Shown: piece by piece, positions 20,222 through 38,354 of the stretch
How the letters are laid out: each line of letters begins with the position of its first letter
Position numbering within the stretch: the stretch's first letter is position 1
IMG/VR virus record: IMGVR_UViG_3300021440_000064
Location: 1-39,327 of that record
DNA from: a virus
Direction: 5' to 3' (one strand)
DNA length: 39,327 nt
Notes under the pieces: model-generated
What the model saw: only the letters and a program-made list of their open reading frames with translations
Databases searched by the model: none
What the model was told of the DNA's origin: nothing
Program-made: the position numbers and the translations under genes

Positions 20222-21718
20222 CTACGAGACAAGCAGTTTCCTGTTATTTCCGACTAGTCCGTCAATCACGTTCACACAACCGTCGCACGCATCGTCGTGT
20301 GGCTCTACGCCAAGCCCGATGATCTGTGTCAACAATTCTTCTGCACCCTGTTTAGGAAACAATACGATTCCGCTCTTGATATACGGCGCAACCATGTTCA
20401 AGCGGAACTTCTTATCCTGTGAACTGAATACGTTTACCGCATCAATACCGTTTTTCATGAATACCTGTGTTGCTACCCGTTGGAATTGGTTTCCTTCAAC
20501 GAAGAATCGAACGGGGTTTCGTAGCCGTGCCTTCAATAAGCGGGCATTGCTGACAATTCCGTGGAAGTCTAAGCGCTCATTGACGAAGTTTGCAAGAATC
20601 AGAATTCGTTCTTCGCCGTATTCGTTTTGAACCACCATTGCGGGGATCATAGCCGTACAGTCCGCCGTTTGTTTTTCTGAAATAGCCAAGTCGACACCAA
20701 CTCCCGAACGCAAGAACTTTTTCTGAAGCCATGATTCGTCATAGTACTGGATATCAGTTTCTTTGATGATCTGGTCTTCTTCATTCACGATCTTCAACAA
20801 GAACTCACGCGCCCAAATAACAAGCCCAAGCCCTGCACCTGAAAGCATGATTTCTTGTTTCTTCGCTTCGATTGATTCCCGTGTCGGGTACATTGCACGC
20901 CATGTGACATATCCGTTCGCATCAATAAGCGGGAAGCGTTTCACCTTCACGATATCCTTGCCGTTCTTTTCAAGGTTAGCAAGCAAGCAGTCTTTGTGAA
21001 CTAGGTTTCCGATGATGATCACGCGTGTCAATCCGAGTTCTTCTGGCTTCATACCTGCCAAAACTTCCGCGAAGAACCATTGGCGGGTTTTCTTGCGTTG
21101 CTCCTGTGACTTTGTTGAATCAGTGTTTTCGATATCGTCGCCGACAATAAGATCTGGCTTGTGATCCTTCATGTTGTCATCAGTAAACTTCATACCGCGG
21201 ATATTCTGCCCGCGTGAACGTGCAACAATGAAACCATCACAAAGATTCAACTGTTCTTCTGACCACTTGTGCGACATTTCAACCGATTTCTTTTTCACTA
21301 GAATCCCGAAGTCTTCTTGAAGCTCCTTACTCGATTCAATCATCTTTCGAATGTTCGCAAGGTTACGCTTTGCATCTGAATCAGTAGCCCCGATCATTAC
21401 CGCCAACTTGTGTCGCTTTGTTACGATAGCCCACAACACGAATGCTTCGACAATGGTCGACTTCGCACTACCACGGAAACCAAGAATCGCTATGAACTTC
21501 TGAAGTGATTCAAGGTCGTTGAAAAGTTCTTCATGGAACGAAGCCATTTGAAGCACGAACTTCCCGCGCAAGTAGATCTGGCAAAAAGCCGAAAAGCTAT
21601 CCATTGAAAAAGCCAAGCGGAAGTATTTCGCTGGTTGTGTTTCCTGCTTGCCGTCTTTGGTGATCATTATTCCACCGAATAGGCAAAGGTCGATTTCTTT
21701 TTCAGTGAGTACTTTCAT
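20222..21718 (-). CDS. Terminase large subunit
   Basis: The 498-aa product has a Walker A GFRGSAKST (about residues 80-88) and Walker B LIVGDDIE (190-197), followed by a coupling segment. Its RNase H-like nuclease half shows GVDLAIS around residue 345, FFVEGNQFQR and a terminal DDACDGCVNVIDGL. It pumps DNA into the head through the portal and cuts it. The gene follows the small subunit, separated by an unusual 147-base non-coding stretch with iteron-like repeats. Confidence 0.95.
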   Translation of the reverse strand: MKVLTEKEIDLCLFGGIMITKDGKQETQPAKYFRLAFSMDSFSAFCQIYLRGKFVLQMASFHEELFNDLESLQKFIAILGFRGSAKSTIVEAFVLWAIVTKRHKLAVMIGATDSDAKRNLANIRKMIESSKELQEDFGILVKKKSVEMSHKWSEEQLNLCDGFIVARSRGQNIRGMKFTDDNMKDHKPDLIVGDDIENTDSTKSQEQRKKTRQWFFAEVLAGMKPEELGLTRVIIIGNLVHKDCLLANLEKNGKDIVKVKRFPLIDANGYVTWRAMYPTRESIEAKKQEIMLSGAGLGLVIWAREFLLKIVNEEDQIIKETDIQYYDESWLQKKFLRSGVGVDLAISEKQTADCTAMIPAMVVQNEYGEERILILANFVNERLDFHGIVSNARLLKARLRNPVRFFVEGNQFQRVATQVFMKNGIDAVNVFSSQDKKFRLNMVAPYIKSGIVLFPKQGAEELLTQIIGLGVEPHDDACDGCVNVIDGLVGNNRKLLVS

Positions 21719-21734
21719 AGTTCGTTCGTGTGTT

Positions 21735-21830
21735 GCTAGTTATATATTATTACTTTTACTTTTACTTTTATATTACCTTTATTTTACTATTACCTTTACT
21801 GACATGTGTGACACATGTGAAGCACATGTG
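21735..21830. promoter_or_regulatory. Iteron + AT-trinucleotide module between the terminase genes
   Basis: Three CACATGTG-type sites (21801-21808, 21812-21819, 21823-21830) have centres exactly 11 bp apart. They are followed, on the minus strand, by about 60 bp of TAG/TAA/AAG trinucleotide tract ending at GCTAGT/ACTAGC. The same arrangement occurs inside the replication gene at 37758-37843. Candidates are a second replication origin, or a terminase (pac/cos-like) recognition region because it lies between the terminase genes. Confidence 0.6.
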
Positions 21831-21865
21831 TTTAATTACTCATAAAGTCTATAAAAATAAGGATT

Positions 21866-22471
21866 TTATGTTTCAAAAAAGTCCGAAATGATTTCTTTTT
21901 CTTCATCATTAGTTTCTGGTAAAAAATCAACATGTTCTTCGCTAGGAATGTAGTCATCTGGCGCTGAAACTGGTGTCGTAGCTTCGACATCAATCACGTT
22001 GGCATCAAGGTCGCCGACATATTCACCCTGCTTTTTATCAACGATAAAGTTCGCACCACCGTTGCGAATTTCTTCACGAATTTCAAGGATCTTCTTCAAT
22101 TTCTCGTCTTCTGATTCATCATCATCGAGCGAAAGATTGACCTGCTGTTTAGCTTTTCCAATAGCCTGTGTTAGTGCTAGTTCCATGAATGCGAATGCTT
22201 GCCGTGGTGATAGTGAATCATCAAGTGCATAATCGAACACGCGTTTTACTACCGCCTGAAGTTTTGACATTTCAATTGGTTGACCGTTTTCATCAAATTC
22301 AATATGCAAGCGTTGTGCTTCTTCAAGAAACCAACGTCGCATTTGTTTTGAGTTTGCAAGATTCTTCGGTCTTCCTTTTGGATTACCACATACACCGCTT
22401 TTGAACGGAATTAGGTTTGCAGTGTTATCAACCTTCTTTTTCCCTTCTCTGTTTTTGTCACTGTTTTTCAT
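21866..22471 (-). CDS. Terminase small subunit
   Basis: The 201-aa product starts with MKNSDKNREGKKKVDN; a frame open further upstream adds a hydrophobic extension that I consider untranslated. Near residues 25-38 it has the GVCGNPKGRPKNLANSK element common in phage small terminases or DUF5681-like proteins, then a helical DNA-binding/oligomerisation part (EEAQRLHIEF..., SPRQAFAFMELALTQAIGKAK), and an acidic C-terminus. It recognises the packaging site and regulates the large subunit. It is the first gene after the late promoter and leader terminator. Confidence 0.8.
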   Translation of the reverse strand: MKNSDKNREGKKKVDNTANLIPFKSGVCGNPKGRPKNLANSKQMRRWFLEEAQRLHIEFDENGQPIEMSKLQAVVKRVFDYALDDSLSPRQAFAFMELALTQAIGKAKQQVNLSLDDDESEDEKLKKILEIREEIRNGGANFIVDKKQGEYVGDLDANVIDVEATTPVSAPDDYIPSEEHVDFLPETNDEEKEIISDFFET

Positions 22472-22496
22472 ACTGTTATAGTTTATCATGAAAACG

Positions 22497-22530
22497 AAAA
22501 AAGCCACATAGCGTTAGCAATGTGACTTAA
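22497..22530 (-). terminator. Terminator at the end of the late leader
   Basis: The minus-strand stem GUCACAU/AUGUGGC (one G-U pair) has a 10-base loop containing CTAACGC and is followed by six Us. It lies between the late promoter and the small terminase gene. The loop is complementary to GCGTTAG earlier in the leader. Confidence 0.8.
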
Positions 22531-25103: not shown

Positions 25104-25277
25104 CTATTTATCAGCCGAAACTGACATCATAAGTGCTATTACCCACGCGATGAATGTCCACCCAAGGAAAATGTTCAGAATCATTATTGCTGTTCTGTTC
25201 ACTTTCTTTTTGTGGAACGCGATGATTGTTGGCAAAAAATATAAACCGATTGCCATTAGTACATACGTTAAAATCAT
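25104..25277 (-). CDS. Superinfection immunity-like membrane peptide (Imm family)
   Basis: The 57-aa product has two hydrophobic segments with the family pattern seen in T4 Imm-type superinfection immunity proteins: YFLPTIIAFHKKKVN in the first half, then AIMILNIFLGWTFIAW, ending with VIALMMS. In T4, Imm blocks DNA entry from a second infecting phage. The frame begins with the ATG of an ATGA overlap with the NinG stop and ends three bases before the next gene, so it is translated within the operon. It is under 60 residues and easily missed by length cut-offs. Confidence 0.75.
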   Translation of the reverse strand: MILTYVLMAIGLYFLPTIIAFHKKKVNRTAIMILNIFLGWTFIAWVIALMMSVSADK

Positions 25278-25699
25278 AATTGTTTTTGTTGTAGAAATTC
25301 TGCTACCTTATTTTTATAGTATTGTATCTTTTCTTGATACCACAATGAATCGACTTTCATTGTTTCCTTTGATCGAACCTTGATTGCTTTGATTCGTTCT
25401 TCGCCTATCTTGTCGACAAGTGCGAATTCGAAGTCGCGCATCATTAGTTTTTGATCAATCCTTCCATTACACCCGTTGCATTGCGCGTGGCAATTGTCTT
25501 CATCGAAACGTGTCGCAAGTAGCGAACGTGACATGAAGTGACCGTTGTTGATTCCACGCATTCCGCTTTTCCAAAAGTGGCGCGCTCCGCAAATGATGCA
25601 ACTACAATACCCGTAGTGATCAGAATCGCGAAGGCGAATATATTCGGAAAAAACTTCATCAAGCTTTTCTTTTAATTTTTGTTGATCGCTTTTTGCCAT
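25274..25699 (-). CDS. ninG: NinG/Rap-like recombination endonuclease
   Basis: The 141-aa product matches lambda NinG/Rap in order and motifs: an N-terminal LKEKLDEVFSEYIRLRDSD, a zinc site CSCIICGARHF, then NNGHFMSRSLLATRFDEDNCHAQCNGCNGR. Rap is a structure-specific nuclease that cuts recombination intermediates. It belongs with the RecT, YqaJ and SSB genes upstream. The gene ends in TGA within ATGA at the start of the Imm-like gene. Confidence 0.88.
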   Translation of the reverse strand: MAKSDQQKLKEKLDEVFSEYIRLRDSDHYGYCSCIICGARHFWKSGMRGINNGHFMSRSLLATRFDEDNCHAQCNGCNGRIDQKLMMRDFEFALVDKIGEERIKAIKVRSKETMKVDSLWYQEKIQYYKNKVAEFLQQKQL

Positions 25700-26324: not shown

Positions 26325-27589
26325 ATGATTCGTTTGATTGCATTTCCTTTGATAATATTTACACGATCAACGGCTTCATCAATAGTTTCTTCGACTGAAA
26401 AATATTTAATGAAACACTTTTCTGTTTGACCTTTTCTGTGAACACGATCTTCGGCTTGCCAGTTTTTCCCAACGCTCCAGTTCTTGTCGATGATAAAGAT
26501 CAAGCTTGAATTCTGAAGATTTAACCCTTCAGCGCCAGCGTTTATGTTTGCCGTGAAGAATTGAACTTCTTTTCGTTTGAACTTTCCGTCACCGTCTTCC
26601 TGCTTCAGTGTCGAGAATGACAACCCGCGTTCTTTTAATCCCTTGTTGATGAATTCGATTGTTGCAATATATTCAGTGAATATGATTGCTTGCTGTTCCC
26701 CGACTTCTTCAATCATTTCAAGTAAGTATTCTGCCTTCATCATACTTGTTGCCTGTCGTAGTTTTACAACCTGCACCATGTCTTTGTTGCGAATTACTGA
26801 CCTGATTTCCTTTGGTGTCTTTTCACCAAGTTCGATGCACTTCTGAACGTAGTCCGCGAATGCTGTTGCATAGCGCCTTTTTTGTTCATCAGTCATTTCA
26901 ATTTTAACCGTTTTGACAATTTTTTCTGGTAGATCGAGTACTTCGCTTTTTTTCACAATATCAACATCTGAAAGTATTCTGCTTCGAAGTTCTTCAAGAT
27001 TCGCCGCACCTTTTGCAACCCATATCATACGGCGTGCGCGTGGAACATATTCAAGGTGTCCTTTGCAGAACTTTTTCTGGTATTCAGTTTTTCTTAATAC
27101 CTGCGTGATTTTTGCATTGACCGCAAGAAGTTGATTCCATAGATCAGCGGGGCGATTAGTAACTGGCGTACCAGTCAACAACGTCACAACCTGCATGTTT
27201 TTTGATATCTCTATTACCCCCGCGCTTCGTTGTGTGTCCCCTTTGATACAGTGTGATTCATCAACGATCATGCGTTTGTACGCTTCGCAAATAGGATCTT
27301 TGAACTTCTTCGCTAGATCGTACGATATGATCAACCACTTTTTACCTTGAACGATGTCTTTTCCTTTTTTAATGATCTGAATATCGTCCGCACTTTCACC
27401 CATTACTGAAACAAGTTCTTGAAGGTAATTGTTTTTTGTCTTTGTTGGACAAACGACAACCGCCCCGAATTCCTTGTGCATTGATATTGATGTCACGGAT
27501 TTACCCGTTCCCATTTCGTGCGCAAGAATCACTGAACGTTCACTGAACTGTTCAACTGCTCTTTTTTGGTGGCTCATTAGTTCGATCAT
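26321..27589 (-). CDS. SNF2-family DEAD-like helicase/ATPase
   Basis: The 422-aa product has the full set of SF2/SNF2 motifs: Walker A EMGTGKS (25-31), motif II DESH (110-113), TGTP (139-142), and C-terminal IIFTEY plus NAGAEGLNLQNSS and QAEDRVHRKGQ (motif VI). It is a double-strand DNA translocase of the size common in phages, likely helping replication or recombination with RecT/YqaJ/SSB. It overlaps its downstream neighbour in an ATGA. Confidence 0.92.
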   Translation of the reverse strand: MIELMSHQKRAVEQFSERSVILAHEMGTGKSVTSISMHKEFGAVVVCPTKTKNNYLQELVSVMGESADDIQIIKKGKDIVQGKKWLIISYDLAKKFKDPICEAYKRMIVDESHCIKGDTQRSAGVIEISKNMQVVTLLTGTPVTNRPADLWNQLLAVNAKITQVLRKTEYQKKFCKGHLEYVPRARRMIWVAKGAANLEELRSRILSDVDIVKKSEVLDLPEKIVKTVKIEMTDEQKRRYATAFADYVQKCIELGEKTPKEIRSVIRNKDMVQVVKLRQATSMMKAEYLLEMIEEVGEQQAIIFTEYIATIEFINKGLKERGLSFSTLKQEDGDGKFKRKEVQFFTANINAGAEGLNLQNSSLIFIIDKNWSVGKNWQAEDRVHRKGQTEKCFIKYFSVEETIDEAVDRVNIIKGNAIKRII

Positions 27590-28173
27590 ATCATTCCTTT
27601 GTTTTTATATTGTTGCATTAGCTCATTTGTTGCACGAACTGTGGCAACATCTCGACCGTACTTTTCGACTAACTCATTGAAGTGATCACTATTCGGGAAT
27701 ATGTACATTTGATTTGCACCTGTTCCGAATACCACTTCTTCAACATCGTTCAGCCATTCAGTGAATTGCTTCGTTGTTCTGAATGATGTCAATGAATTTA
27801 CCTGATCCGTTTGATGTCCTGTGTGATCGTATAGGACGAAACCAACTGCACGTTTTATGTCGTCGGTTGCATCTTCAAGCAATTCCTTTGGAATCTTTGC
27901 GTGCCAGTAGTCGTGTTTTTGTCGTGCATAGTATGGCACAACTGCACCCCTGAAAAAGAAATTCATCTTTTCTAGTGCCTTATTTACTATTTTGAAAGTA
28001 ATTTCCACCGTTCGATATTCGCCCGCTTCTTCGCCATTCAATTGATTGATGTGATTTTCTGCAAGGGTTATGAACTGATTTTCCGCAACCACCGTCATTT
28101 CATCGAATACTTGTTTCGGGTTTGAATCTCGATCAAGGTACTTCAACAATTTAACAGAATCTTTTGTAATCAT
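27586..28173 (-). CDS. Hypothetical protein
   Basis: The 195-aa product is mixed alpha/beta with an acidic character. Not recognised; there are no nuclease or polymerase motifs that I can see. It contains GFVLYDHTGHQTDQVNSL and ends in a basic tail. It overlaps the helicase start by 4 bases, so a partnership with the helicase is possible. Confidence 0.6.
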   Translation of the reverse strand: MITKDSVKLLKYLDRDSNPKQVFDEMTVVAENQFITLAENHINQLNGEEAGEYRTVEITFKIVNKALEKMNFFFRGAVVPYYARQKHDYWHAKIPKELLEDATDDIKRAVGFVLYDHTGHQTDQVNSLTSFRTTKQFTEWLNDVEEVVFGTGANQMYIFPNSDHFNELVEKYGRDVATVRATNELMQQYKNKGMI

Positions 28174-28176
28174 AGA

Positions 28177-28518
28177 TTATTTTGAACTAGCTTTCGCGGA
28201 ACGACCGCGGGGTTTTTTCTTTATCACTGGAACGTTTTTCAATTCTTCCTTCACAAGAAGTCCTTTGTACCAAGCATCTGCCTTTTCAAAATTATTTATA
28301 ACATCTCTTTGGAAGTGTCTCATGTCACTTCCATTTTGTAGTGATTCAAAAAAAGCAATACCGTGATACAAAATGAATTTTATTGTGTCGATATCGTTTC
28401 TTGAAAATCTTCCTTTTGGTGGTACTCCGTAAGCTTGAACTGTAGCAAGAAGATATTTCTTCCTATCCATGTGCTTTGTTTTGCGAAGTAATGTTTTTAA
28501 AAAGTTGATTTCAGTCAT
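28177..28518 (-). CDS. Hypothetical protein with basic tail
   Basis: The 113-aa product is basic and helical, with a Lys/Arg/Pro-rich C-terminus (KKKPRGRSAKASSK) likely to contact nucleic acid. Not recognised. It sits between SSB and the gene before the helicase, with 3-base gaps on both sides, so it belongs to the recombination operon. Confidence 0.55.
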   Translation of the reverse strand: MTEINFLKTLLRKTKHMDRKKYLLATVQAYGVPPKGRFSRNDIDTIKFILYHGIAFFESLQNGSDMRHFQRDVINNFEKADAWYKGLLVKEELKNVPVIKKKPRGRSAKASSK

Positions 28519-28521
28519 AGG

Positions 28522-28983
28522 CTAGAAGGGTATGTCCGCAGGATCAATATCTTCATCTGGATATTCAATGACATCGTAGCCTGATTGTTCCGACTGTGGT
28601 TTTGAATAGTCCTGACTGTAAGCACTTTCTTCTTGTGGCGCACTTTGGCGATCATTCTTTGAACCGACGAACTGGAATGAATCCATTACAACTTCAGTTC
28701 GATATCGCTTCTTGCCGTCTTCGCCGTCCCAACTGCGTGTTTTCATTCGCCCTTCGATGTAGATTGGTGAACCTTTACCGAACCACTTGTGAACGGTTTC
28801 AGCAGTTTTTCCATAGGCGACTACGTTGTGGAATTCTGATTCTTCTTGCTTTTGCCCGTCCTTATCCTTCCATACACGATTCGTTGCGATTGAAAAGTTT
28901 GCGACGTGCATTCCGCTAGGAAGTGCTTTCAATTCGATTACGTTTGTGATGTGACCTGCAACGGTTGCTTTGTTGATATTCAT
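28522..28983 (-). CDS. ssb: Single-stranded DNA-binding protein
   Basis: The 153-aa product has a typical bacterial/phage SSB OB-fold: MNINKATVAGHITNVIELKALPSGMHVANFSIATNRVWKDK, FHNVVAYGKTAETVHKWFGKGSPIYIEGRMKTRSW, VVMDSFQFV. A flexible Gln/Ser/Pro linker then leads to an acidic tip EDIDPADIPF that normally binds partner proteins. It coats single strands during replication and recombination; RecT and YqaJ are encoded upstream. Confidence 0.95.
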   Translation of the reverse strand: MNINKATVAGHITNVIELKALPSGMHVANFSIATNRVWKDKDGQKQEESEFHNVVAYGKTAETVHKWFGKGSPIYIEGRMKTRSWDGEDGKKRYRTEVVMDSFQFVGSKNDRQSAPQEESAYSQDYSKPQSEQSGYDVIEYPDEDIDPADIPF

Positions 28984-28986
28984 AGA

Positions 28987-29178
28987 TTAGTAAGTTTTTA
29001 CTGTTATGTTTTCCGATAATTTTACGACTGATTTTGGTTGGTTGATTTGTGGAACTTGCGTTCCGCGCAATAGCTTTGGTTTGATTCCATTGTTCTTGCA
29101 AAATTTTCTGCGATCTTTTCGATTCATCTTTTGAAGAAAGTCGATTGTAAGTTCGCGTGTTTTCTTGTTTTCGTCCAT
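28987..29178 (-). CDS. Small hypothetical protein in recombination operon
   Basis: The 63-aa product starts MDENKKTREL; I chose this over an upstream ATG that overlaps YqaJ more. It is basic (KMNRKDRRKFCKNNGIKPKLL) and may bind DNA or a partner. It lies between YqaJ and SSB, 4 and 3 bases away. Not recognised. Confidence 0.5.
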   Translation of the reverse strand: MDENKKTRELTIDFLQKMNRKDRRKFCKNNGIKPKLLRGTQVPQINQPKSVVKLSENITVKTY

Positions 29179-29182
29179 ATGA

Positions 29183-29896
29183 CTATAGTCCCATGAAGTA
29201 ATTTTCAAGCGCTTTTTGTTTTTCGTAAGTGTCCAAAATAGCGGGCATGATTTCTTCGATTATTTGTTCGACTTCTGATCTTGTAACTGTGATGATAAGG
29301 TAGTTGTTTTCTGGTATCGCGGGATCGTATACGAAGAAGTCTAGTTCTTCGGCTGTGTCGATCACAAGGAAGGCATCAACACATTGCCAGTAATAACCAG
29401 TATCAAGGCGTTTGATCTTATCAATCCCGTATTGATGTTGTTCACAATGGAACTCATACTTTTCAGTCAACGGGTTTTTGATAAACATTCCGAGTTCTTC
29501 AACATATGAAGCAAAGACTTTCGATGTAGGGTGTTTCATTTCAAGCACCTTTCTGATCAATGTTTTGTCTTTGTTGTATATGATACCGTCTGGTGAATAT
29601 CCGAACTGCGGAAGCTTTGTGTTTGAAACTCCACCGCAAGTGACGGCTTGTTCGCCTGTGACTTCGTTGTACTTGATCAATCCGCTTTCTTCCTGAACAG
29701 TTCCCCAAGTCATAGGGTTTGAATCATGATCAACTGCGACTTGTTTTTCAACGAATGCGAATATCTTTTCCCTGAATCCTGAACCGCGAACCTTTGGTGT
29801 GTATTCTTCGAACTTCGAACCTGTGATCAATGGATTGCGCCATTCTTCCCACTCGTTCGAACGCTGTTCGAATTGGTGAATAATTAGGTGATCCAT
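29183..29896 (-). CDS. YqaJ-family viral exonuclease
   Basis: The 237-aa product shows the YqaJ/lambda-exonuclease-like PD-(D/E)XK nuclease pattern: RSNEWEEWRNPLITGS at the N-terminus, TWGTVQEESGLIKYNEVTG, GYSPDGIIY (Asp in the active site) and VLEMKHPTSKVF (the E-x-K). It trims dsDNA ends to give 3' tails for RecT. Its stop lies four bases before the next gene, and RecT begins right upstream. Confidence 0.9.
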   Translation of the reverse strand: MDHLIIHQFEQRSNEWEEWRNPLITGSKFEEYTPKVRGSGFREKIFAFVEKQVAVDHDSNPMTWGTVQEESGLIKYNEVTGEQAVTCGGVSNTKLPQFGYSPDGIIYNKDKTLIRKVLEMKHPTSKVFASYVEELGMFIKNPLTEKYEFHCEQHQYGIDKIKRLDTGYYWQCVDAFLVIDTAEELDFFVYDPAIPENNYLIITVTRSEVEQIIEEIMPAILDTYEKQKALENYFMGL

Positions 29897-29897
29897 A

Positions 29898-30794
29898 CTA
29901 GGCTTTGATTTCTTCTGCGTTCACATCAATGACGGGTTGTGTGGTTGGTTGTGTTGGTGGTACTTCTGGCGCAACTGGATCTTTTGGCGCTTCTGGTGGT
30001 GTTGGATCTTTCGGTTTGTTGGCTTCTTCGAACTTCGCCTTCATTTCGTTTTTTGCTTCCTGAATTTTCTCATTGTGCATCAACTCTTTGCCGATCTTCC
30101 CGAAGAATTCGCGAAGTTCTTCACCGCTGTTTGTTGCCTTGATTCGTTCGATTGTGATTTGAACTAGATCTGGTTTAACGTCCTGAATCTTTTCAGTGAA
30201 GTTTTTTGTTTCAACAATTCGTGAACCTTCTTCTTCAACGTACATGTTCGCCATTTCTTCTGGACAAGCCTTTCGAAGCGCGTGCATTTCTGCAACCTTT
30301 GCGATCATTGTTCGTGGTTTCTTATCCCACATTGATTCAGTATATTTTCCGTCCCAAGTTTTGCCCGCCTGATAGTATTCATCGAAGTAAACTTCAGCGA
30401 TATACTCCCCGACTGTTCCACTTGATAGCTGTCTTTTGATTGTCATTGAACATGATTCAATCTTTTCGCCATTCATTTTATATGAAGGCTCTGAAACGTA
30501 GCATACACCTGAACGCATTCCGATCTTGCGAGCGTAACCGATTGAAGTCATAAGTGAATATGAATGAACCTTCCCACGATATAGCACTGCATAAATATCC
30601 TTTTGCATGAAGTTTTGTAAGTTGAACCCTGTCATATAGGCTTCAACAATAGCTTGCTTCATTAGTTCTTCCGAGAAATCTTTGAACACTGATTTCAAAA
30701 GTGATGCTTTGACTTCTGGTGTTGCGATTTCGCGCAAGCCTTCAGTGATAGCGTTTGAAGAATTACTTCTTTGTAAAACGGGTTTGTTTTCCAT
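29898..30794 (-). CDS. recT: RecT/Bet-type single-strand annealing protein
   Basis: The 298-aa product has the annealing-protein core: SEELMKQAIVEAYMTGFNLQNFMQKDIYAVLYRGK, SYSLMTSIGYARKIGMRSG, and the hallmark MWDKKPRTMIAKVAEMHALRKACPEEMANMY. After about residue 230 it has a Pro/Glu/Ala-rich low-complexity tail (PKDPTPPEAPKDPVAPEVPPTQ...). With the YqaJ exonuclease one base downstream it forms a Red-like annealing system. Its start overlaps the HTH gene by 32 bases. Confidence 0.9.
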   Translation of the reverse strand: MENKPVLQRSNSSNAITEGLREIATPEVKASLLKSVFKDFSEELMKQAIVEAYMTGFNLQNFMQKDIYAVLYRGKVHSYSLMTSIGYARKIGMRSGVCYVSEPSYKMNGEKIESCSMTIKRQLSSGTVGEYIAEVYFDEYYQAGKTWDGKYTESMWDKKPRTMIAKVAEMHALRKACPEEMANMYVEEEGSRIVETKNFTEKIQDVKPDLVQITIERIKATNSGEELREFFGKIGKELMHNEKIQEAKNEMKAKFEEANKPKDPTPPEAPKDPVAPEVPPTQPTTQPVIDVNAEEIKA

Positions 30795-30999
30795 ACATGT
30801 GAATAAATTTTAATAGTTCAGCACCCGATACGATGTAGCGTGGTTTTTTTTCCCCGCCGACATTTGTTGCTTCAAGGCGACCTTCTCGAATATAACGAAG
30901 TATCATTTGCTTTTGTGCGTTGAAACTTTCACCGCCGAATGCGACTAGGTTTTCTTTTGCAATGTCATTAACACTGTAGTGTTTGCTGGCTATGATCAT
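30763..30999 (-). CDS. Small helix-turn-helix / excisionase-like protein
   Basis: The 78-aa product looks like a winged-helix MerR/excisionase-type DNA-binding domain: SVNDIAKENLV, QMILRYIREGRLEATNVGGEKKPRYIVSGAELLKFI. As there is no integrase, it is more likely a transcription regulator than an excisionase. It is the first gene behind the 31039-31066 promoter and overlaps RecT. Confidence 0.7.
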   Translation of the reverse strand: MIIASKHYSVNDIAKENLVAFGGESFNAQKQMILRYIREGRLEATNVGGEKKPRYIVSGAELLKFIHMYGKQTRFTKK

Positions 31000-31038
31000 A
31001 ATTTTTTAATAATAAATTGATAATGTTTCGACATATGT

Positions 31039-31066
31039 ATACTATACTATATTTTCAAAAAGTAAA
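31039..31066 (-). promoter_or_regulatory. Early promoter for the recombination operon
   Basis: TTTACT (31066-31061), a 16-base spacer and TAGTAT, with several overlapping TATAGT alternatives. It carries the same 26-base upstream element as the promoter at 35975-36002 and lies in the end of the gene at 31042-31386. Confidence 0.6.
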
Positions 31067-31386
31067 GTGTAAAGAATATCTATACAAGATGGCTTCTGTT
31101 CGTCAAGACTCTTGTTGATCTTCCATTTGAAGTTGATTACAGTCCCACATAGTTGATCATTGAAGTGAACATGATCATCTTTTATGTAGCACATGAACAT
31201 TGTTTTGTTTGAATCAATTCCCCTGAATGTATAGGCTACTAGTTCGGTTACTTGTTCAAGCCTGATTTGATTGTTCACCTGATCACCTTTGATATTCCTG
31301 TATAGGTTAGTAATTGCATCGACCTTTGAAACGAATATTTTCGCTTCAGAACTGATTGCATTATCGTTTTGAATAGATTTGTTCAT
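31042..31386 (-). CDS. Hypothetical early protein
   Basis: The 114-aa product is alpha/beta with no membrane helix. Not recognised. Its last ten codons overlap the early promoter repeat, and its start overlaps the previous gene by 26 bases. It is the last gene before the recombination operon. Confidence 0.6.
   Translation of the reverse strand: MNKSIQNDNAISSEAKIFVSKVDAITNLYRNIKGDQVNNQIRLEQVTELVAYTFRGIDSNKTMFMCYIKDDHVHFNDQLCGTVINFKWKINKSLDEQKPSCIDILYTLLFENIV
31052..31077. repeat. 26-bp direct repeat, early promoter element, copy 1
   Basis: The 26 bases (minus strand ATTCTTTACACTTTAC then TTTTTGAAAA) match 35988-36013 exactly. The copy doubles as the 3' end of a coding sequence (DILYTLLFEN) and as the -35 region of a promoter. 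Confidence 0.85.
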
Positions 31387-31744
31387 GTAGTTTGCAAAGT
31401 TTCTTAATATCAGTTGGTAATTTGTTGAAGTTCTTTATTCCATACGCCTTCATTCGAAATGGTAGTGAATACGATTCGATTGCTTCGGGGTACATGAATG
31501 AAGCATCACTTGCACGGGCGCACCCCTTGTGCGATAGCCACACATGGAATGATTCGCCGTTAAACTCGTAACTGACAAGCATTGGCTTGTTGTAGATTAC
31601 TTCAGCAAGATACATTTTGACGATTGCCATGCGAATACCGAATTCGCGCTTTTGATTTCCTGCTAGTGATGTTTCACGATTCTTGATGATTCGTTCTGAA
31701 AGCTGTTTTCGATATTCAGCTTTTGTGATTTTGTTTGTTTTCAT
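31361..31744 (-). CDS. Hypothetical protein
   Basis: The 127-aa product begins MKTNKITKAEYRKQL; the frame stays open upstream, but the ATG in an ATGA overlap with the membrane protein gene is the likely start. It is basic, with a compact centre (YNKPMLVSYEFNGESFHVWLSHKGCARASDASF). Not recognised. Confidence 0.55.
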   Translation of the reverse strand: MKTNKITKAEYRKQLSERIIKNRETSLAGNQKREFGIRMAIVKMYLAEVIYNKPMLVSYEFNGESFHVWLSHKGCARASDASFMYPEAIESYSLPFRMKAYGIKNFNKLPTDIKKLCKLHEQIYSKR

Positions 31745-32052
31745 GGATTGATTCTTAAAATTCTTTTTAATAAAACGACCTGATTTATCTTTTCGCCTGT
31801 CTTTTCTTCGTGCTTCCAACATAGATATCCGCCAAGTGTCATGAAGAACTGCCATAGCATGATAGGAATCTGGAAGTACATTCCCCAACTTAAAAACATG
31901 ATTAGCGAAACAATGTCACGACCCCACCCGATCAAATAAACTTTGATATCTTTTTTTGATAGGAACAGTTGAACCATTGTGTTTGCTATAATGATGAATA
32001 AAACGTATACCGTGTTTACTGAAATGAAGTTCAGTATTTCTTTTGATTGCAT
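31741..32052 (-). CDS. Membrane protein with two or three helices
   Basis: The 103-aa product has hydrophobic segments near residues 12-30 and 46-80 (VSLIMFLSWGMYFQIPIMLWQFFMTLGGYLCW). The aromatic helix recalls PnuC-type transporters, but the protein is too short for that family, so I leave it unnamed. It has its own TATAAT six bases before the ATG and ends in an ATGA overlap. Confidence 0.6.
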   Translation of the reverse strand: MQSKEILNFISVNTVYVLFIIIANTMVQLFLSKKDIKVYLIGWGRDIVSLIMFLSWGMYFQIPIMLWQFFMTLGGYLCWKHEEKTGEKINQVVLLKRILRINP

Positions 32053-32058
32053 GTGGTG

Positions 32059-32064
32059 ATTATA
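32059..32064 (-). promoter_or_regulatory. -10 TATAAT, leaderless start for 31741-32052
   Basis: TATAAT lies 6 bases before the ATG, without a TGn extension. It overlaps the stop of the AP2 protein gene. Confidence 0.55.
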
Positions 32065-32602
32065 TTATTTCGTTTTGATAAGCATGTTCACCGTAAAATT
32101 CTTTTGATTTTTCATTATACCAAAGTGCGGCTTCTTTTTCCGTTGCGAATGTTTTTGTGTGTACATTCCCTTCGTACTGAATTTCTGCACGCCATGGCTT
32201 TATTGGTTGGTAGAACCCATTTCCATTTTTTTTGCGTGACATTCTTCTTTGACAAGAAACTCCTTTGTATAGCGATGTTGGCGTTAAACCACCATTTCCG
32301 ACCGATCTTTTCCTATTGGTGTGTAGGGTAGTCGGTATATTGATAATTTTTAGATTACTTTTTTGAAGATTTAAATTGTTTTTGTCTATGTAAAGTACTT
32401 CTTTTTTGAAATGCTCACCTTTTTCGTTTTTTGTAGTGAGTAAGAATCTCCACATTTCGATGTAAACAGTTTTACCGTTTTGTTTTGGTAGCCTTGTTAT
32501 AACTCCACCTATTGCGGGATACCAACTAAAACGATTCAAAAAGTCAAAATCTTCATCATCGACTATAGCAAACTTTCCTTGTGTCAATTGTATTTGTTTC
32601 AT
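32060..32602 (-). CDS. AP2-domain protein with degenerate HNH part
   Basis: The 180-aa product resembles phage HNH-AP2 homing endonucleases. The N-terminal half has the scaffold (YIEMWRFLLTT; LYIDKNNLNLQKSNLKI), but the residues that should be His and Asn are Trp51, Tyr71 and Gln80, so nuclease activity is probably lost. The C-terminal half (GVSCQRRMSRKKNG... PWRAEIQYEGNVHTKTFATEKEAALWYNEKSKEFYGEHA) is a good AP2-type DNA-binding domain. It may be a decayed mobile gene or now a regulator. Confidence 0.75.
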   Translation of the reverse strand: MKQIQLTQGKFAIVDDEDFDFLNRFSWYPAIGGVITRLPKQNGKTVYIEMWRFLLTTKNEKGEHFKKEVLYIDKNNLNLQKSNLKIINIPTTLHTNRKRSVGNGGLTPTSLYKGVSCQRRMSRKKNGNGFYQPIKPWRAEIQYEGNVHTKTFATEKEAALWYNEKSKEFYGEHAYQNEII

Positions 32603-32604
32603 GA

Positions 32605-33069
32605 TTATCTTTCAATTAGTTCAATTTCGAACGTGTCCTGAATTTTCATCACAACACTTCCGAATGCGGGCGATTTTCCCTTTTTCCCTAGTCCGCTCTC
32701 GAAGTTTATGCGACCATTAGGAACAAAGAACTTGCCCCCCCCCGCGATACTATGGAATCTTTTTGTTGTAATAAATTCGATAGGAAAAAGAATGTAGATT
32801 TCATTTTTCGCTATCTGGTACGTTTGCCACGCCTTCAAAAGGAAGTCATGCTTCATTGTGAATGGTGGGTTGATCCATATGCGCCCGTACTGTGTCCAGT
32901 CTTTTGAAAGCCCGTCGGTTTCGATAGTATCAAAGTTTAATACTCCGAATTCTTCCGCTTTCTCTTTTGTTGTGGCTGGATCATAGTCGAACTTTCCGAA
33001 CTTTTCAACGAACGCTTTCGGCGTGTAATACTCGTTATCTTTTGTGAATTGTACTTGTGATTTTGCCAT
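32605..33069 (-). CDS. Phage Dam-type DNA N6-adenine methyltransferase
   Basis: The 154-aa product matches small phage DNMTs of the Dam (PF05869-like) type: FDYDPAT near residues 27-33, the catalytic INPPF near 66-70, FPIEFITTKRFHSI, and the FVPNGRINFESG segment. It likely methylates adenine in phage DNA to evade restriction, or methylates host sites. It lies between the AP2 gene and small unknown genes in the early operon. Confidence 0.88.
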   Translation of the reverse strand: MAKSQVQFTKDNEYYTPKAFVEKFGKFDYDPATTKEKAEEFGVLNFDTIETDGLSKDWTQYGRIWINPPFTMKHDFLLKAWQTYQIAKNEIYILFPIEFITTKRFHSIAGGGKFFVPNGRINFESGLGKKGKSPAFGSVVMKIQDTFEIELIER

Positions 33070-33072
33070 ATA

Positions 33073-33432
33073 CTATCCTTGTTCATAAGTTGCTTTTATA
33101 ACATTGAATTCATCATCGACAAGGAATTCATAGCGCATATAGTTCCCTTCTGGATTACATTCCGAGTGGTTATATTCTGCGCCCCAAACTATAATCATGC
33201 ACCCACTTGCGAGAAGCTCGCAGTCGTCTTTTTGGATTTCAAAGAATATACCTGTTTCGCTAGAATTATGATCCAAGAATGCACGCATTAGCTTGATTGA
33301 TTCTTTTTGACCGTCGGTTTTGTCTTCAGTTTCTTCAAGAAGATCAATCGAAGTATCAAGGCAAACTTCTTCTTCCCAAAGTTCGAGCCAGTCGACATAT
33401 TTGTCTATTGTCCACATTGATTTTGTCCACAT
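33073..33432 (-). CDS. Hypothetical acidic protein
   Basis: The 119-aa product is strongly acidic (LEETEDKTDGQKESIK, VWGAEYNHSECNPEGNYMRYEFLVDDEF). There are two possible starts, MWTKSM and MWTIDK. Not recognised. The charge could mimic DNA, but this is only speculation. Confidence 0.5.
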   Translation of the reverse strand: MWTKSMWTIDKYVDWLELWEEEVCLDTSIDLLEETEDKTDGQKESIKLMRAFLDHNSSETGIFFEIQKDDCELLASGCMIIVWGAEYNHSECNPEGNYMRYEFLVDDEFNVIKATYEQG

Positions 33433-33435
33433 AAA

Positions 33436-33714
33436 TTATTCGTTAGTTACTGTTGAACCACAACAAGGACACTGGCGCATTTTCAAGGCTTTCAAGTAAT
33501 TCTTGATATTGATTGCCGTTGCTTCTGCATCACTATTCTTTTGAAGTTTTTTTGGTTTACCGTTCACCGTGACGACTAGTGAACCAGTGGTGTGATACCA
33601 GTCGAAGAAAACATTTCCGTATTCTTCGTTTGATAATCTGAATTGATACTCGTTCATGACTTTCACGTCTAGCCCGTAGCCTTCGCGGAACATTTGCATT
33701 GTTTCTTTGTGCAT
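33436..33714 (-). CDS. Hypothetical protein with C-terminal zinc knuckle
   Basis: The 92-aa product is alpha/beta with a C-terminal CPCCGS sequence in MRQCPCCGSTVTNE, a single Cys-pair that could bind metal with a partner or as a dimer. Not recognised. It sits four bases from its neighbours in the early operon. Confidence 0.5.
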   Translation of the reverse strand: MHKETMQMFREGYGLDVKVMNEYQFRLSNEEYGNVFFDWYHTTGSLVVTVNGKPKKLQKNSDAEATAINIKNYLKALKMRQCPCCGSTVTNE

Positions 33715-33717
33715 ATT

Positions 33718-34008
33718 TTATTCTTTTGCTTCAGTTCGCAAGAAGTGAACCTTTTCAATATTATCCGAAATAATAGTCAACCCGACCAAGCTGTCGCTTT
33801 CTATTTCATTGATTCCCGATGCTTCGATCGCATCGCCGACATTCATACCGCTACGCAACCCGTCTAGTATCTTTTGTTTTATTTCTTGCGGGATTGCATC
33901 AATTTTGGCGCGTAGTTCCGCTTGAAAGTCGCGAAGCTTTTTCCCACAACTAGGGCATTTATATAGATCAGTTGCGTGAAAGTGTTTGCACATTTCTTTC
34001 TTGCTCAT
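33718..34008 (-). CDS. Zinc-ribbon protein
   Basis: The 96-aa product has CKHFH (Cys7) and YKCPSCGKKL (Cys18, Cys21) near the start, a likely zinc ribbon. A helical middle (DFQAELRAKIDAIPQEIKQKILDGLRSGMN) and GDAIEASG follow. Function unknown. It starts 3 bases after the coiled-coil gene. Confidence 0.6.
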   Translation of the reverse strand: MSKKEMCKHFHATDLYKCPSCGKKLRDFQAELRAKIDAIPQEIKQKILDGLRSGMNVGDAIEASGINEIESDSLVGLTIISDNIEKVHFLRTEAKE

Positions 34009-34010
34009 AC

Positions 34011-35045
34011 CTAACAGTTTTTATTGATAAATTTTTGAACGTCCGACAACATTTCTTCGACTTGTTTTTGAACCTTTGAACCGTATTCGGTTGATAGCTT
34101 CATGTAAACGATTGAATCAATCGCACCTTTTAGATCTCCACTGTTTGCAAACTCCTTCAGCTTTTCAACGTCGGGCGCTTGTTCTAGTTTCAAAAGTCTT
34201 TCAGCTTCTTCCTTGTCCGCTTCCGCTTTCTTGCGAGCTTCTTCCGCGATTCGTTCTTGTTCAAGGCGATCTTTTTCGCGCTGTTCATTTTCGATTCGTT
34301 CGCGTTCGATACGTTCTGCTTCAGCTTTTTTGCGTAAGTCTTCCGCTTCAGTTTCCGCCTTGATTCGAGCTTCTTCAGCAACGCGAGCCTTTTCACGTTC
34401 ATCAGCAAGTTCTTTTTGGCGTTCCTTTTCGGCTTCAGCTTCCTTCTTCTTGCGTTCTTCAGCTTCAGCTTTTTCCTGCTCGATTCTTTTTTCTTCGGCG
34501 ATTCGCTCTTGCTCGATTCGATCAGCTTCTTCACGTTCACGCTTTTCAAATAGTTCTTTTGAATCCCTGAAAAGTTTCTGGAACAATTCTTCTGGCATTT
34601 CTGCTAGGTTGTAGAACTGCGGATCAACTCCGTATTGTTGAAGTGAAATTGAACGTTCAGCAACAACCGCTTTGATTCGCTCGATTTCTTTATTTTCTGC
34701 GAATTTTTCTTGTTGCATCAAGTGTTCTTCGAGCGGAACAACTAGGTACTTGACCATGTTTAGCAGTCCGTCGATAAAACGTCCTTGACGTAGTACACCC
34801 GCTTTCATGTCCTTGTGAACCTTTTCTGAATTAGTTCGAACGTTTTTCAGAATCAATCTGATTTCGCGCGCGCGTTTCATGCTTTGCTTTTCTGAAACGT
34901 CGTTGATCTTGATTGATTTTGCTTCGTTCTCAATCAGTGATATTTCTTGAAGAAACGATTGAAAGTGATCATACATTTTCATTGCTTCTGTTTTTTCGAT
35001 CCCTGATTCTTGAATAATAACTTCAAGGTTTTTATTTTCCGTCAT
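34011..35045 (-). CDS. Long coiled-coil protein
   Basis: The 344-aa product has a globular N-terminal half of about 150 residues (RLILKNVRTNSEKVHKDMKAGVLRQGRFIDGLLNMVKYLVVPLEEHL), which resembles conserved phage proteins found near RecT/recombination genes. About 130 residues of almost pure Glu/Lys/Arg/Ala coiled coil with repeated E-R-I-E-Q-E-R units follow. A short C-terminal domain ends the chain. The pattern suggests an elongated dimer, perhaps a scaffold for recombination or replication proteins. The repetitive codons produce long false frames on both strands. Confidence 0.75.
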   Translation of the reverse strand: MTENKNLEVIIQESGIEKTEAMKMYDHFQSFLQEISLIENEAKSIKINDVSEKQSMKRAREIRLILKNVRTNSEKVHKDMKAGVLRQGRFIDGLLNMVKYLVVPLEEHLMQQEKFAENKEIERIKAVVAERSISLQQYGVDPQFYNLAEMPEELFQKLFRDSKELFEKREREEADRIEQERIAEEKRIEQEKAEAEERKKKEAEAEKERQKELADEREKARVAEEARIKAETEAEDLRKKAEAERIERERIENEQREKDRLEQERIAEEARKKAEADKEEAERLLKLEQAPDVEKLKEFANSGDLKGAIDSIVYMKLSTEYGSKVQKQVEEMLSDVQKFINKNC

Positions 35046-35403
35046 AATTTGTTAGTGTCTCAATTTCTTTATGCGCGATTTCGATTCGCTTTGAATAACA
35101 TTTGTCTAGTGATTCGTGCTTCATTGCATCTGAACTTCTTGATTCTACAATGCGAACAAGCTCCCTATCATTGCAGAATGTATCGACTTTGATTTCTTCT
35201 GGTGTGTGTGTTACTGCGAACACAAAACTTGTGAAATGATACGCAAGTAGTGCAGTTACAATTCCAACGATTACGACTAGCACCGACAATTTTATTATGC
35301 GCTTTGTCCTTCTTCTTTTTGAAATGTTTCTGTGTGGTCTTGATATCACACCTTGAATAAATAAACTCGATCTACTTTCCTGATATCTTTCGTGCTTGCT
35401 CAT
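35032..35403 (-). CDS. Small membrane protein with periplasmic part
   Basis: The 123-aa product has a basic N-terminal tail (KRRRTKRIIKL), a transmembrane helix (LSVLVVIVGIVTALLAYHF) and an outside domain with two Cys that could form a disulfide. I chose MSKHER over an upstream MNLSRY. It overlaps the coiled-coil gene start by 14 bases. Function unknown. Confidence 0.6.
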   Translation of the reverse strand: MSKHERYQESRSSLFIQGVISRPHRNISKRRRTKRIIKLSVLVVIVGIVTALLAYHFTSFVFAVTHTPEEIKVDTFCNDRELVRIVESRSSDAMKHESLDKCYSKRIEIAHKEIETLTNYDGK

Positions 35404-35671
35404 AGAATATCTTGATAAATTCATCGACTACCGATTCATCGTTTCCGCCGATGTGCCATTCGTATTCGCCGACATGCGAATCGAATGAATAATAATCGTA
35501 CACCGTACAGATCTTCCCCGAAGGAAGGATCATGCACCATTCGACATTCGTTTTGTCGTTGGTGTCGTATTCTGGCGTTCCTAAAATCTCCACTAGCTTT
35601 TTGTAGGTAGCATGAAACGAGCCTTTTCGGCTTGTTCCTGATGCTTCCGTGAATGGTACACGCTTGATCAT
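35372..35671 (-). CDS. Hypothetical protein
   Basis: The 99-aa product looks mixed alpha/beta, with a TYKKLVEILGTPEYDTNDKTNVEW opening and YSFDSHVGEYEWHIGG near the end. Not recognised; no signal or membrane segment. It lies one base from the next gene up. Confidence 0.55.
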   Translation of the reverse strand: MIKRVPFTEASGTSRKGSFHATYKKLVEILGTPEYDTNDKTNVEWCMILPSGKICTVYDYYSFDSHVGEYEWHIGGNDESVVDEFIKIFYEQARKISGK

Positions 35672-35672
35672 A

Positions 35673-35918
35673 TTAGTCCATTGCGCACCATGTGTGCATT
35701 TTCATACCGACTGAATCAAACATTCGAACCAAGTCCCACATGTTTGTATCTTCATTTATTTCACCATTTGCGACACTGTTTTCGTAAAGTTTCTTTGCCA
35801 TTTTGTAGCTTCGAATATTTCTGTTGTGTGCGCGTGGCTCATTATTCGGATCTGTTAGATCGTGAATGACTATGCTTTTTGCTTCGTCACTGAATCTGAT
35901 TGAAAATTTGTTATTCAT
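35673..35918 (-). CDS. Hypothetical protein, first gene of early unit
   Basis: The 81-aa product begins MNNKFSIRFSDEAKSIVIHDLTDPNNEPRAHN, beta then helical. Not recognised. It is the first gene after the 35975-36002 promoter, with a leader of about 50 bases, so it should be expressed early. Confidence 0.6.
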   Translation of the reverse strand: MNNKFSIRFSDEAKSIVIHDLTDPNNEPRAHNRNIRSYKMAKKLYENSVANGEINEDTNMWDLVRMFDSVGMKMHTWCAMD

Positions 35919-35974
35919 ACCTTGAAAGATTGCTAGTAGTAAAGTTGTGAAGTCGGGTTACTTTCACATAAATT

Positions 35975-36002
35975 AGTATATACCCGTTTTTCAAAAAGTA
36001 AA
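35975..36002 (-). promoter_or_regulatory. Early promoter, TTTACT-N16-TATACT
   Basis: TTTACT (36002-35997) and TATACT (35980-35975) are 16 bases apart. It shares GGTATATACTAA with the late promoter and the 26-base upstream element with the promoter at 31039-31066. Confidence 0.7.
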
Positions 36003-36013
36003 GTGTAAAGAAT
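35988..36013. repeat. 26-bp direct repeat, early promoter element, copy 2
   Basis: This is identical to 31052-31077. Here it is non-coding and covers the -35 and the region just upstream of it. Confidence 0.85.
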
Positions 36014-36020
36014 CTATAAC

Positions 36021-36029
36021 TGTGGATAA
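36021..36029. promoter_or_regulatory. Consensus DnaA box
   Basis: TTATCCACA on the minus strand is a perfect DnaA box. It lies next to the early promoter and the 26-bp repeat in the longest non-coding gap of the window. It may allow host DnaA to control transcription or replication. Another perfect match lies inside a tail gene near 6744, so chance cannot be excluded. Confidence 0.5.
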
Positions 36030-36036
36030 CTCAAAA

Positions 36037-36066
36037 CAAAAAAGCACCAGTGATGATGCTCTTTTG
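36037..36066 (-). terminator. Intrinsic terminator after replication operon
   Basis: The minus-strand stem AGCATCA/TGGTGCT (one G-U pair) with a 4-base loop is followed by six Us. Confidence 0.8.
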
Positions 36067-36128
36067 CCGTAACCCGTTATTACTACCCTTTGCAAGGCTT
36101 CCACTATAATATCATTTTTTATGAAGTA

Positions 36129-36314
36129 TTACAATGAACCGAACTTTTTGATATAACATTTTTTGCAGAATAGTGGCATTTGTTTTTGTTCCTTCGGTTG
36201 ATCTTCTTCAATCCTGCCGTATGCGTGGCTTTCACATAGCCCGCACTTGCACTTCGCGCAGATTTCCGTTTCATGTTTCAATATTTTCTTCTGGCATTCG
36301 TTGCAATTAGTCAT
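36129..36314 (-). CDS. Small zinc-ribbon protein
   Basis: The 61-aa product has three Cys pairs: CNEC near residue 4, CAKCKC near 18-23, and CKKC near 50-53. It would bind two zinc ions, as in LIM/RING-like small adaptors. Last gene of the replication operon. Function unknown; a small transcription or protein-interaction factor is possible. Confidence 0.65.
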   Translation of the reverse strand: MTNCNECQKKILKHETEICAKCKCGLCESHAYGRIEEDQPKEQKQMPLFCKKCYIKKFGSL

Positions 36315-36320
36315 ATGCGT

Positions 36321-36818
36321 TTATTCGGTTGTTGGTACTAGCTCGAATAGTTGAAGATCTCCTTTTGGAAACCGCATGATTCCACATCGTGAAAATCCTG
36401 CCTTATATAAAACGTTCCACATTGGAACATTGCTTCGAAGTGTTTCAGTGTACAAATACATTCCGCACTTCTTTGCATTCTGTGCGATCCTTTTCATGAC
36501 ATACGTTGCGATACCATTCCCGCGGAATTCTTTTTCGATTTCAAAGTCCTGAATCTGAAAACATTTTTCACGCCCGAATGAATCATCGTTGTAAAGAATA
36601 AAAGATCCTATGTCCCCGTCATAGTCTACCTTTGAAAACTCGACATATACCATGTTCACATCTTCCTTCCGAACCATGATTTGAAAACGTAGCCCCTTTA
36701 TTCCTTCAACTAGGCTTCTTGCTTTCTTGATATTACTGAACGCCTTCGCATCATTTTTATCGAAATTAGAATCTTCTGGTTGATGAATAAAACTTATAGT
36801 TATTTTTGATTCTCTCAT
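36321..36818 (-). CDS. GNAT-family acetyltransferase
   Basis: The 165-aa product has GNAT motifs: QIQDFEIEKEFRGNGIATYVMKRIAQNAKK (acetyl-CoA binding R-G-N-G-I-A) and VPMWNVLYKAGF near the end. It transfers an acetyl group to an unknown target, perhaps a host protein, DNA base precursor or toxin. It is the third gene of the replication operon, 2 bases from its neighbour. Confidence 0.85.
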   Translation of the reverse strand: MRESKITISFIHQPEDSNFDKNDAKAFSNIKKARSLVEGIKGLRFQIMVRKEDVNMVYVEFSKVDYDGDIGSFILYNDDSFGREKCFQIQDFEIEKEFRGNGIATYVMKRIAQNAKKCGMYLYTETLRSNVPMWNVLYKAGFSRCGIMRFPKGDLQLFELVPTTE

Positions 36819-36820
36819 AA

Positions 36821-37253: not shown

Positions 37254-38213
37254 CTACATGATTATTTTGCTTTTGTTATTCGACAACTGCGCTTTTTTAA
37301 CCTGTGCTATCCAACGAACAATTTTCCTTTGCAATTCATTCGGCGTGTACGCAGTCGGTATGTAGTGAAGCTTTTCTGAATTCACGTCGATGTTATTCGT
37401 GTACGGTAGCATTTCAACAATTTGCATTATGCTTTCGAACCCGTGTTCTTCGATAAGGCTTGCAACTGCCTTTCTTTGCGTAGTGTTCGCGTAGTAGCGC
37501 TTGTTGATAGGATCAACGGCTTCAAACGCCTTGATTACCGCCCCGATCTGGTTGTTCAGTGTCATTGTGCCACTATCTACGGTTTCGGGCTGTATTGGCG
37601 ATTCTGTGGCTTCTGGAGCGATGTTTGAAGTGTCTTTCGATTCACTTTTCGCCTTCTTTGCCTTTTTCTTCGCTTTTGGCTCGTTGATGTCTTCTGAAAC
37701 GGCTATTTCTGGCTTTTCTGGTGGTTTAGTTTCCTGCGCCTGATCTTTTCCTTGTTCGCTAGTATTATTATTATTTACGTTATATTTACTATTACTTTTT
37801 ATATTACTATTACGCAGTGTGTCGCACATGCGTTGCACATGTGCAATGTATTCTTGAATGTCTTCTGGTAATAGTTCAATAATTTCATTAGGAAGCATTT
37901 GAATTTCACGCTTGATAAACTTCCATGTGTCACCACCTTTCGAAGGTTTTACATATGAATTTTCGGTAATGATGATGTAGCCTAGAACGATAGTGATCAA
38001 CTTCTTTTCCTGAAGCTCTTGAAATGCTTCATTGATTTCTTCGGTCGTCATTAACGTATAGGCGCGGATCATTTGCATGTTCTTTTTTAGAACTGGCAAT
38101 GTGTCACGGTCGGGGCTTGTAAGAATGTGGAAGTACAAAAATCTTGATTCGCGATTTAATTCGGATATAACTTCGTCCTTCCAAAAGTCGGTTTTGATAA
38201 GTGCTGTTTTCAT
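37254..38213 (-). CDS. Replication initiator / replisome organizer
   Basis: The 319-aa product has an N-terminal winged-helix part (KTDFWKDEVISELNRESRFLYFHILTSPDRDTLPVLKKNM..., TTEEINEAFQELQEKKLITI) typical of phage replisome organizers. A low-complexity linker (about 130-220, Asn- then Pro/Lys/Glu-rich) follows, then a C-terminal domain (KAFEAVDPINKRYYANTTQRKAVASLIEEHG ... TAYTPNELQRKIVRW). The Asn-rich linker is encoded by an origin-like tract with three CACATGTG-type sites, recalling lambda O. No helicase, primase or polymerase gene was seen, so host replication proteins are probably recruited. Confidence 0.75.
   Translation of the reverse strand: MKTALIKTDFWKDEVISELNRESRFLYFHILTSPDRDTLPVLKKNMQMIRAYTLMTTEEINEAFQELQEKKLITIVLGYIIITENSYVKPSKGGDTWKFIKREIQMLPNEIIELLPEDIQEYIAHVQRMCDTLRNSNIKSNSKYNVNNNNTSEQGKDQAQETKPPEKPEIAVSEDINEPKAKKKAKKAKSESKDTSNIAPEATESPIQPETVDSGTMTLNNQIGAVIKAFEAVDPINKRYYANTTQRKAVASLIEEHGFESIMQIVEMLPYTNNIDVNSEKLHYIPTAYTPNELQRKIVRWIAQVKKAQLSNNKSKIIM
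37758..37846. promoter_or_regulatory. Candidate replication origin inside the initiator gene
   Basis: Sites centred 11 bp apart: GCAGTGTG (37814-37821), CACATGCG (37825-37832) and CACATGTG (37836-37843), the last within a 14-bp perfect palindrome TTGCACATGTGCAA. On the minus strand they are followed by a 50-bp AT tract of TAA/TAG trinucleotides ending in ACTAGC. This resembles an iteron array plus unwinding element. Confidence 0.65.
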
Positions 38214-38324: not shown

Positions 38325-38354
38325 AGTATCGCACATGTGTGACCACTTGTGCAA
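38325..38354 (-). promoter_or_regulatory. Initiator promoter with CACATGTG operators
   Basis: TTGCAC, an 18-base spacer and GATACT form a plausible promoter. CACATGTG (38332-38339) lies in the spacer, and a CACTTG/CAAGTG palindrome overlaps the -35. The sites match the iterons in the initiator gene, suggesting autoregulation. Confidence 0.5.

Follow-up and report, generated by a model that had tools for sequence, protein, structure and literature searches.

The best-described case of two replication origins served by a single initiator is that of Bacillus phage SPP1, whose oriL and oriR have been studied experimentally: one origin lies within the initiator gene, the other is intergenic and sits in the late region, and the replisome organizer gp38 binds both (PMC6316719, PMC3485210). 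In the model proposed for SPP1, gp38 bound at oriR stalls the replication fork, and a junction resolvase, an exonuclease, an annealing protein and a single-strand DNA-binding protein (SSB) then convert replication to the sigma mode (PMC3485210). Other phages, whose initiators are DnaD-like or O-like, encode iterons and an AT tract in the linker part of the initiator gene. The uncultured virus of bacteria described here (IMGVR_UViG_3300021440_000064) shares that intragenic arrangement, and it also carries a second module between its terminase genes.

The window, by which we mean the whole 39,327-nucleotide stretch analysed, holds a complete phage genome of about 39.2 kb (39.18 kb); an overlap of 144 bp (99% identity) between its two ends indicates an assembled circle that carries no virion ends. 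All called genes lie on the minus strand; those for portal, head and tail are found below 20.2 kb, and the recombination and early genes beyond 25 kb. Searches for relatives returned no DNA match to the window among the 50,697 phage records of INPHARED, no match to the initiator in INPHARED, and no close relative of TerL among viral and genome contigs. The features on which the argument turns are these:

20222..21718, minus strand: gene for TerL, the large terminase subunit (phrog_38, E 3e-66), the downstream flank of the gap module
21735..21740, minus strand: closing ACTAGC of the gap module, within ACTAGC(N)AACA
21741..21799, minus strand: AT tract of the gap module, 59 nt of GTAA/TAA/TAG units, gene strand free of C
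21801..21830, minus strand: 8-bp palindromes of the gap module at 11-bp pitch (oriR-like), CACATGTG at 21823-21830, CACATGTG at 21812-21819 and CACATGTC at 21801-21808
21866..22507, minus strand: gene for a DUF5681 protein in the small-terminase position (PF18932, E 2.6e-11), the upstream flank of the gap module
25274..25699, minus strand: NinG/Rap-like junction endonuclease (phrog_5034, E 5e-26), a candidate fork-processing partner
28522..28983, minus strand: SSB (phrog_44, E 1e-47)
29183..29896, minus strand: YqaJ-type exonuclease (PF09588, E 1e-13)
29898..30794, minus strand: RecT-type annealing protein (PF03837, E 2e-12; phrog_2449, E 3e-18)
37254..38213, minus strand: gene for a DnaD-like replication initiator of 319 aa (phrog_1701, E 6e-7), the presumed binder of both modules
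37758..37763, minus strand: closing ACTAGC of the intragenic module, within ACTAGC(N)AACA
37764..37811, minus strand: AT tract of the intragenic module, 48 nt, encoding a disordered Asn/Ser linker
37814..37843, minus strand: sites of the intragenic module at 11-bp pitch (oriL-like), CACATGTG at 37836-37843, CGCATGTG at 37825-37832 and the half-site CACACTGC at 37814-37821
38332..38351, no strand assigned: possible additional site for the initiator, upstream of its gene, CACATGTG at 38332 and CACTTGTG at 38344, 12 bp apart

From its gene position, the DUF5681 protein is probably the small terminase subunit TerS. The terS-terL gap (21719-21865, 147 bp) is non-coding, as an earlier note on this DNA had said: no gene is called within it and an in-frame TAA immediately precedes the TerL start, so an Asn/Ser-rich protein linker cannot explain why the gap resembles a part of the initiator gene. 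Read along the minus (gene) strand from 21830 to 21735, the gap module runs CACATGTG-CTT-CACATGTG-TCA-CACATGTC-A, then the 59-nt C-free tract, then ACTAGC; along the initiator-gene strand from 37843 to 37758, the intragenic module runs CACATGTG-CAA-CGCATGTG-CGA-CACACTGC-GT, followed by a 48-nt tract containing a single C and by ACTAGC. The earlier note had held that the gap repeats the layout of the intragenic module, and this stands in outline, including the tract of TAA/TAG-type triplets on the same strand as the sites, while several details needed revision. Three sites 11 bp apart are present in the gap, but the third intragenic site matches at 4 of 8 positions, so that the intragenic module has two good sites. 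ACTAGC does close both modules, but it occurs 19 times genome-wide and is not diagnostic by itself; the extended form ACTAGC(N)AACA occurs in the two modules only. The reported 10-bp difference in the distance from ACTAGC to the first site appears if the half-site is counted (60 bp in the gap, 50 bp in the initiator gene) and disappears if the first good site is used instead (60 versus 61 bp).

The similarity of the two modules is far beyond chance. Their local alignment scores 48.5, against a mean of 20.3 (sd 3.0, maximum 33) for 1000 dinucleotide shuffles, an excess of more than 9 standard deviations, and module alignments elsewhere in the genome never exceed about 27. When the whole initiator gene was compared with every 200-bp window of the genome, there was a single outlier, 21728-21927, with a score of 32 over a background of 11.8 (sd 2.0); the next independent place scored 21. 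The exact site CACATGTG occurs four times in the genome where 0.69 are expected, a count reached in 0 of 100 shuffles, and three of the four lie inside the modules. A letter-free scan for three phased palindromes had the terS-terL gap as its sole match in the window, and gave none in 5 shuffles. The two tracts are also the genome's two least stable 50-bp windows (37763-37812 over the intragenic tract is the least stable, 21741-21790 in the gap the second) and its two GTAA-densest places. The gap module is a real second copy of the module in the initiator gene, and the architecture, duplication, orientation and instability of the modules are properties of the DNA itself.

Two SPP1-like phages, 049ML001 and 000TH010, served as a positive control, standing in for SPP1 itself. 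In both, the replisome-organizer gene carries repeats with an 11-bp pitch and, after them, an AT tract; the same scan found one strong second copy in each (scores of 47 and 43 against a mean of 11, sd 2). These second copies, at about 4.6-4.7 kb and 5.2-5.3 kb, lie after the portal and minor head genes, in or beside a late intergenic stretch and on the initiator-gene strand, and in each genome the tract of the second copy is the least stable window; their position agrees with the published position of SPP1 oriR. The window resembles these phages in several respects. It has repeats and an AT-rich, unwinding-type element inside the initiator gene (37758-37843 within 37254-38213) and a second such module, on the same strand, in a non-coding part of the late region (21735-21830 in the terS-terL gap). 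The pitch is again 11 bp, and the second copy lies downstream in the direction of transcription, by about 14 kb in the controls and about 16 kb in the window. Like SPP1, the window encodes candidates, by family matches, for all four partners of recombination-dependent replication: a junction nuclease (NinG/Rap), an exonuclease (YqaJ), a RecT-type protein and an SSB.

There are differences as well. The sites of the window are palindromes of the CACATGTG type, whereas those of SPP1 are direct repeats of the GACAG/GACAC type, and the second copy is found between terS and terL, not behind the portal and minor head genes. This location is the main departure from SPP1, and on its account we have kept a packaging role under consideration. 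Profiles did not identify the initiator as a gp38: it and SPP1-type gp38 both match phrog_1701, but in different parts, and a profile-profile comparison built on thin alignments showed no similarity between them. Among the window proteins scanned, none was recognised as a phage helicase or a helicase loader. Taking likenesses and differences together, we favour reading the two modules as an SPP1-type oriL/oriR pair of initiator-binding origins, with a probability of roughly two in three; binding and origin activity are argued from the sequence and from the SPP1 analogy. The suggestion of the earlier note that the gap holds a second origin is thus well supported as an assignment to the SPP1-type class, given the published oriL and oriR and the same pair in both control phages under the same scan, with origin activity itself being inferred.

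Relatives point both ways on this reading. A profile scan found one informative relative, G010 (IMGVR_UViG_3300031965_000093, 36 kb, 127-bp end overlap), whose initiator N-domain is 42-44% identical to that of the window and which has no TerL match. At the same place in its initiator gene, G010 carries four CTC[AT]AGAG (CTCWAGAG) palindromes at 11-bp pitch followed by a same-strand AT tract, and no window of the G010 genome is less stable than this tract. The architecture is kept and the recognition letters are changed, as would be expected if site and DNA-binding domain co-evolve. No second module copy was found in the G010 genome, nor were there phased palindromes at its terminase genes, so the search among relatives recovered the intragenic module and not the copy in the gap; at this distance in the N-domain, and with no TerL match, the missing copy cannot refute a function for the one in the window. 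The more distant initiators L004 and L026 have different repeats in the linker-coding part. Among phages or contigs with related or similar initiators, scanning initiator against genome gave no second copy in PM1, 268TH008, FP_Lagaffe, SE-1, G001 or G010, so the paired layout is not universal, which counts against the reading, and in this the window is unlike most of the intragenic-origin phages examined (PM1, 268TH008, G001, G010).

A separate detector, which looked for three 8-mers spaced at 11-bp pitch with an AT tract behind them, was run over 21 sequences and matched at that pitch only the gap of the window, the intragenic module of G010, the second copy of 000TH010 and one site in L018; it is specific but insensitive, as it missed both modules of 049ML001 and the intragenic module of the window, which bears the half-site. 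The L018 site (3267-3180, minus strand) consists of three AAGTCCTGAGT-type iterons at 11-bp pitch with an AT tract, just before a primase-like gene, and is another candidate origin. A search of viral contigs for the iteron pattern gave one match, a contig of 355,874 bp. Relatives found through the SSB have a few scattered genes in common with the window and no terminase matches, and among relatives found through the portal the iteron detector gave no further module.

How might such a pair work? The initiator is predicted to consist of a winged-helix N-domain, a linker and a helical C-domain, from a structure model and weak winged-helix matches; the full-length model is poor (mean pLDDT 55), so the N-domain alone was used, with modest confidence. 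We propose that the N-domain occupies the phased palindromes as an oligomer, along a single helix face, and that the bound initiator would melt the adjacent AT tract and recruit the host helicase. The intragenic module would fire theta replication. The same initiator, which we infer from the shared sites to bind both modules, would also occupy the gap copy, and this could act as a late origin, as a roadblock to the fork, or both. A fork stalled there might be processed by the junction nuclease, exonuclease, RecT and SSB of the phage into recombination-dependent (sigma) replication, which would yield concatemers for packaging by terminase. In the composition of the genome, GC skew at four-fold sites shows no break at either module. 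Third-position T/A skew does differ within 26573-37761 from the rest (log-likelihood gain of 19 versus a null maximum of 7.5), and we rejected it as evidence for an origin or terminus: its edge at 37761 coincides with the intragenic module, and the partner edge at 26573 misses the gap module.

The position of the gap module invites other explanations. The earlier note had suggested a link between initiator binding and packaging, and one could imagine that the initiator stalls the fork between terS and terL so that the break that starts a concatemer is made at the packaging locus, handing terminase its first substrate; we found nothing beyond position that specifically supports such coupling, and we think it unlikely. 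We are equally doubtful that the gap module is a pac site, at which a ring of small terminase binds the 11-bp-phased repeats, with terminase or initiator using both modules. In headful phages the small terminase binds phased repeats that lie within or close to its own gene, a habit that fits a module placed exactly between the terminase genes. Yet if this were a pac site, a paralogous copy inside the initiator gene would be hard to account for, as would the phased palindromes of G010, which lie in the initiator gene and not at its terminase genes; moreover, the AT tract, an unwinding element needless for pac, was copied along with the sites. A third role, no likelier, is transcriptional control, in which the initiator or another regulator represses or activates terL from palindromic operators. 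The palindromes do lie in the gap just upstream of terL, and the extra CACATGTG/CACTTGTG pair at 38332-38351 could be another operator, but the best intragenic copy lies mid-gene within coding sequence, an unexpected place for an operator, and the long AT tract is conserved along with the sites. The modules could have a regulatory side effect and still be an SPP1-type pair of origins.

It is less probable still that the gap copy arose by a recent duplication and has no function, or that its AT-rich likeness is due to chance. In favour, G010 does without a second copy, but the two modules have diverged at many positions and yet retain sites, pitch, strand bias and tract, the sites of the gap copy are better than those of the intragenic copy, and chance is excluded by the shuffles. 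The reading that we regard as least credible is that the phage uses a host DnaA-type unwinding unit in two places. The origin of B. subtilis, oriC, contains DnaA boxes, DnaA-trios and a DnaD recognition element, and DnaA, starting at the boxes, loads along the trio strand in the 3'->5' direction (PMC6669920, PMC10201434). In the window, as at oriC, double-strand binding sites adjoin a triplet-rich AT tract and there is a DnaD-related protein, and the tract, rich in TAA/TAG with a complement rich in TACT/TTAC, resembles both the DnaA-trio and the DnaD recognition element. However, the sites themselves are different, the polarity of the tract relative to them is reversed (in the window the sites lie 5' of the tract on the TAA/TAG strand), and neither module has a DnaA box within 1 kb, even when one mismatch is allowed. 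We therefore rejected the DnaA system on reversed polarity and missing boxes.

Some other features of the genome deserve mention. The CACATGTG/CACTTGTG pair upstream of the initiator gene has no AT tract of the module type and is possibly autoregulatory. The sequence directly before the initiator start codon (38214-38310, minus strand) could form a long hairpin with arms TTTTGAACATAGTGCATG / CGTGCATTATGTTCAAAA (-28 kcal/mol, z -5.6), a possible control element for initiator expression. A 40-nt element occurs twice at 85% identity (31043-31082 and 35979-36018), about 45-60 bp upstream of the minus-strand gene starts at 30999 and 35918, and looks like a shared promoter or operator. Many start codons in the window have a TATAAT-like box 10-15 bp upstream and no Shine-Dalgarno motif, and TGA stops are rare (5 of 61), which suggests leaderless transcripts and an unusual host.

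The two-origin layout has so far been known in detail just from SPP1 and its close relatives, and our literature search found no other phage beyond SPP1 in which one initiator-bound origin lies within the initiator gene and another among late genes. That such a pair turns up in an uncultured phage whose sites differ, whose initiator is not detectably gp38 and which has no DNA match in those 50,697 records suggests that this layout is a recurring solution. Comparing an initiator gene with the rest of its own genome offers a simple computational test of how frequent this layout is, and the pair bears on how phages switch from copying circles to making concatemers.
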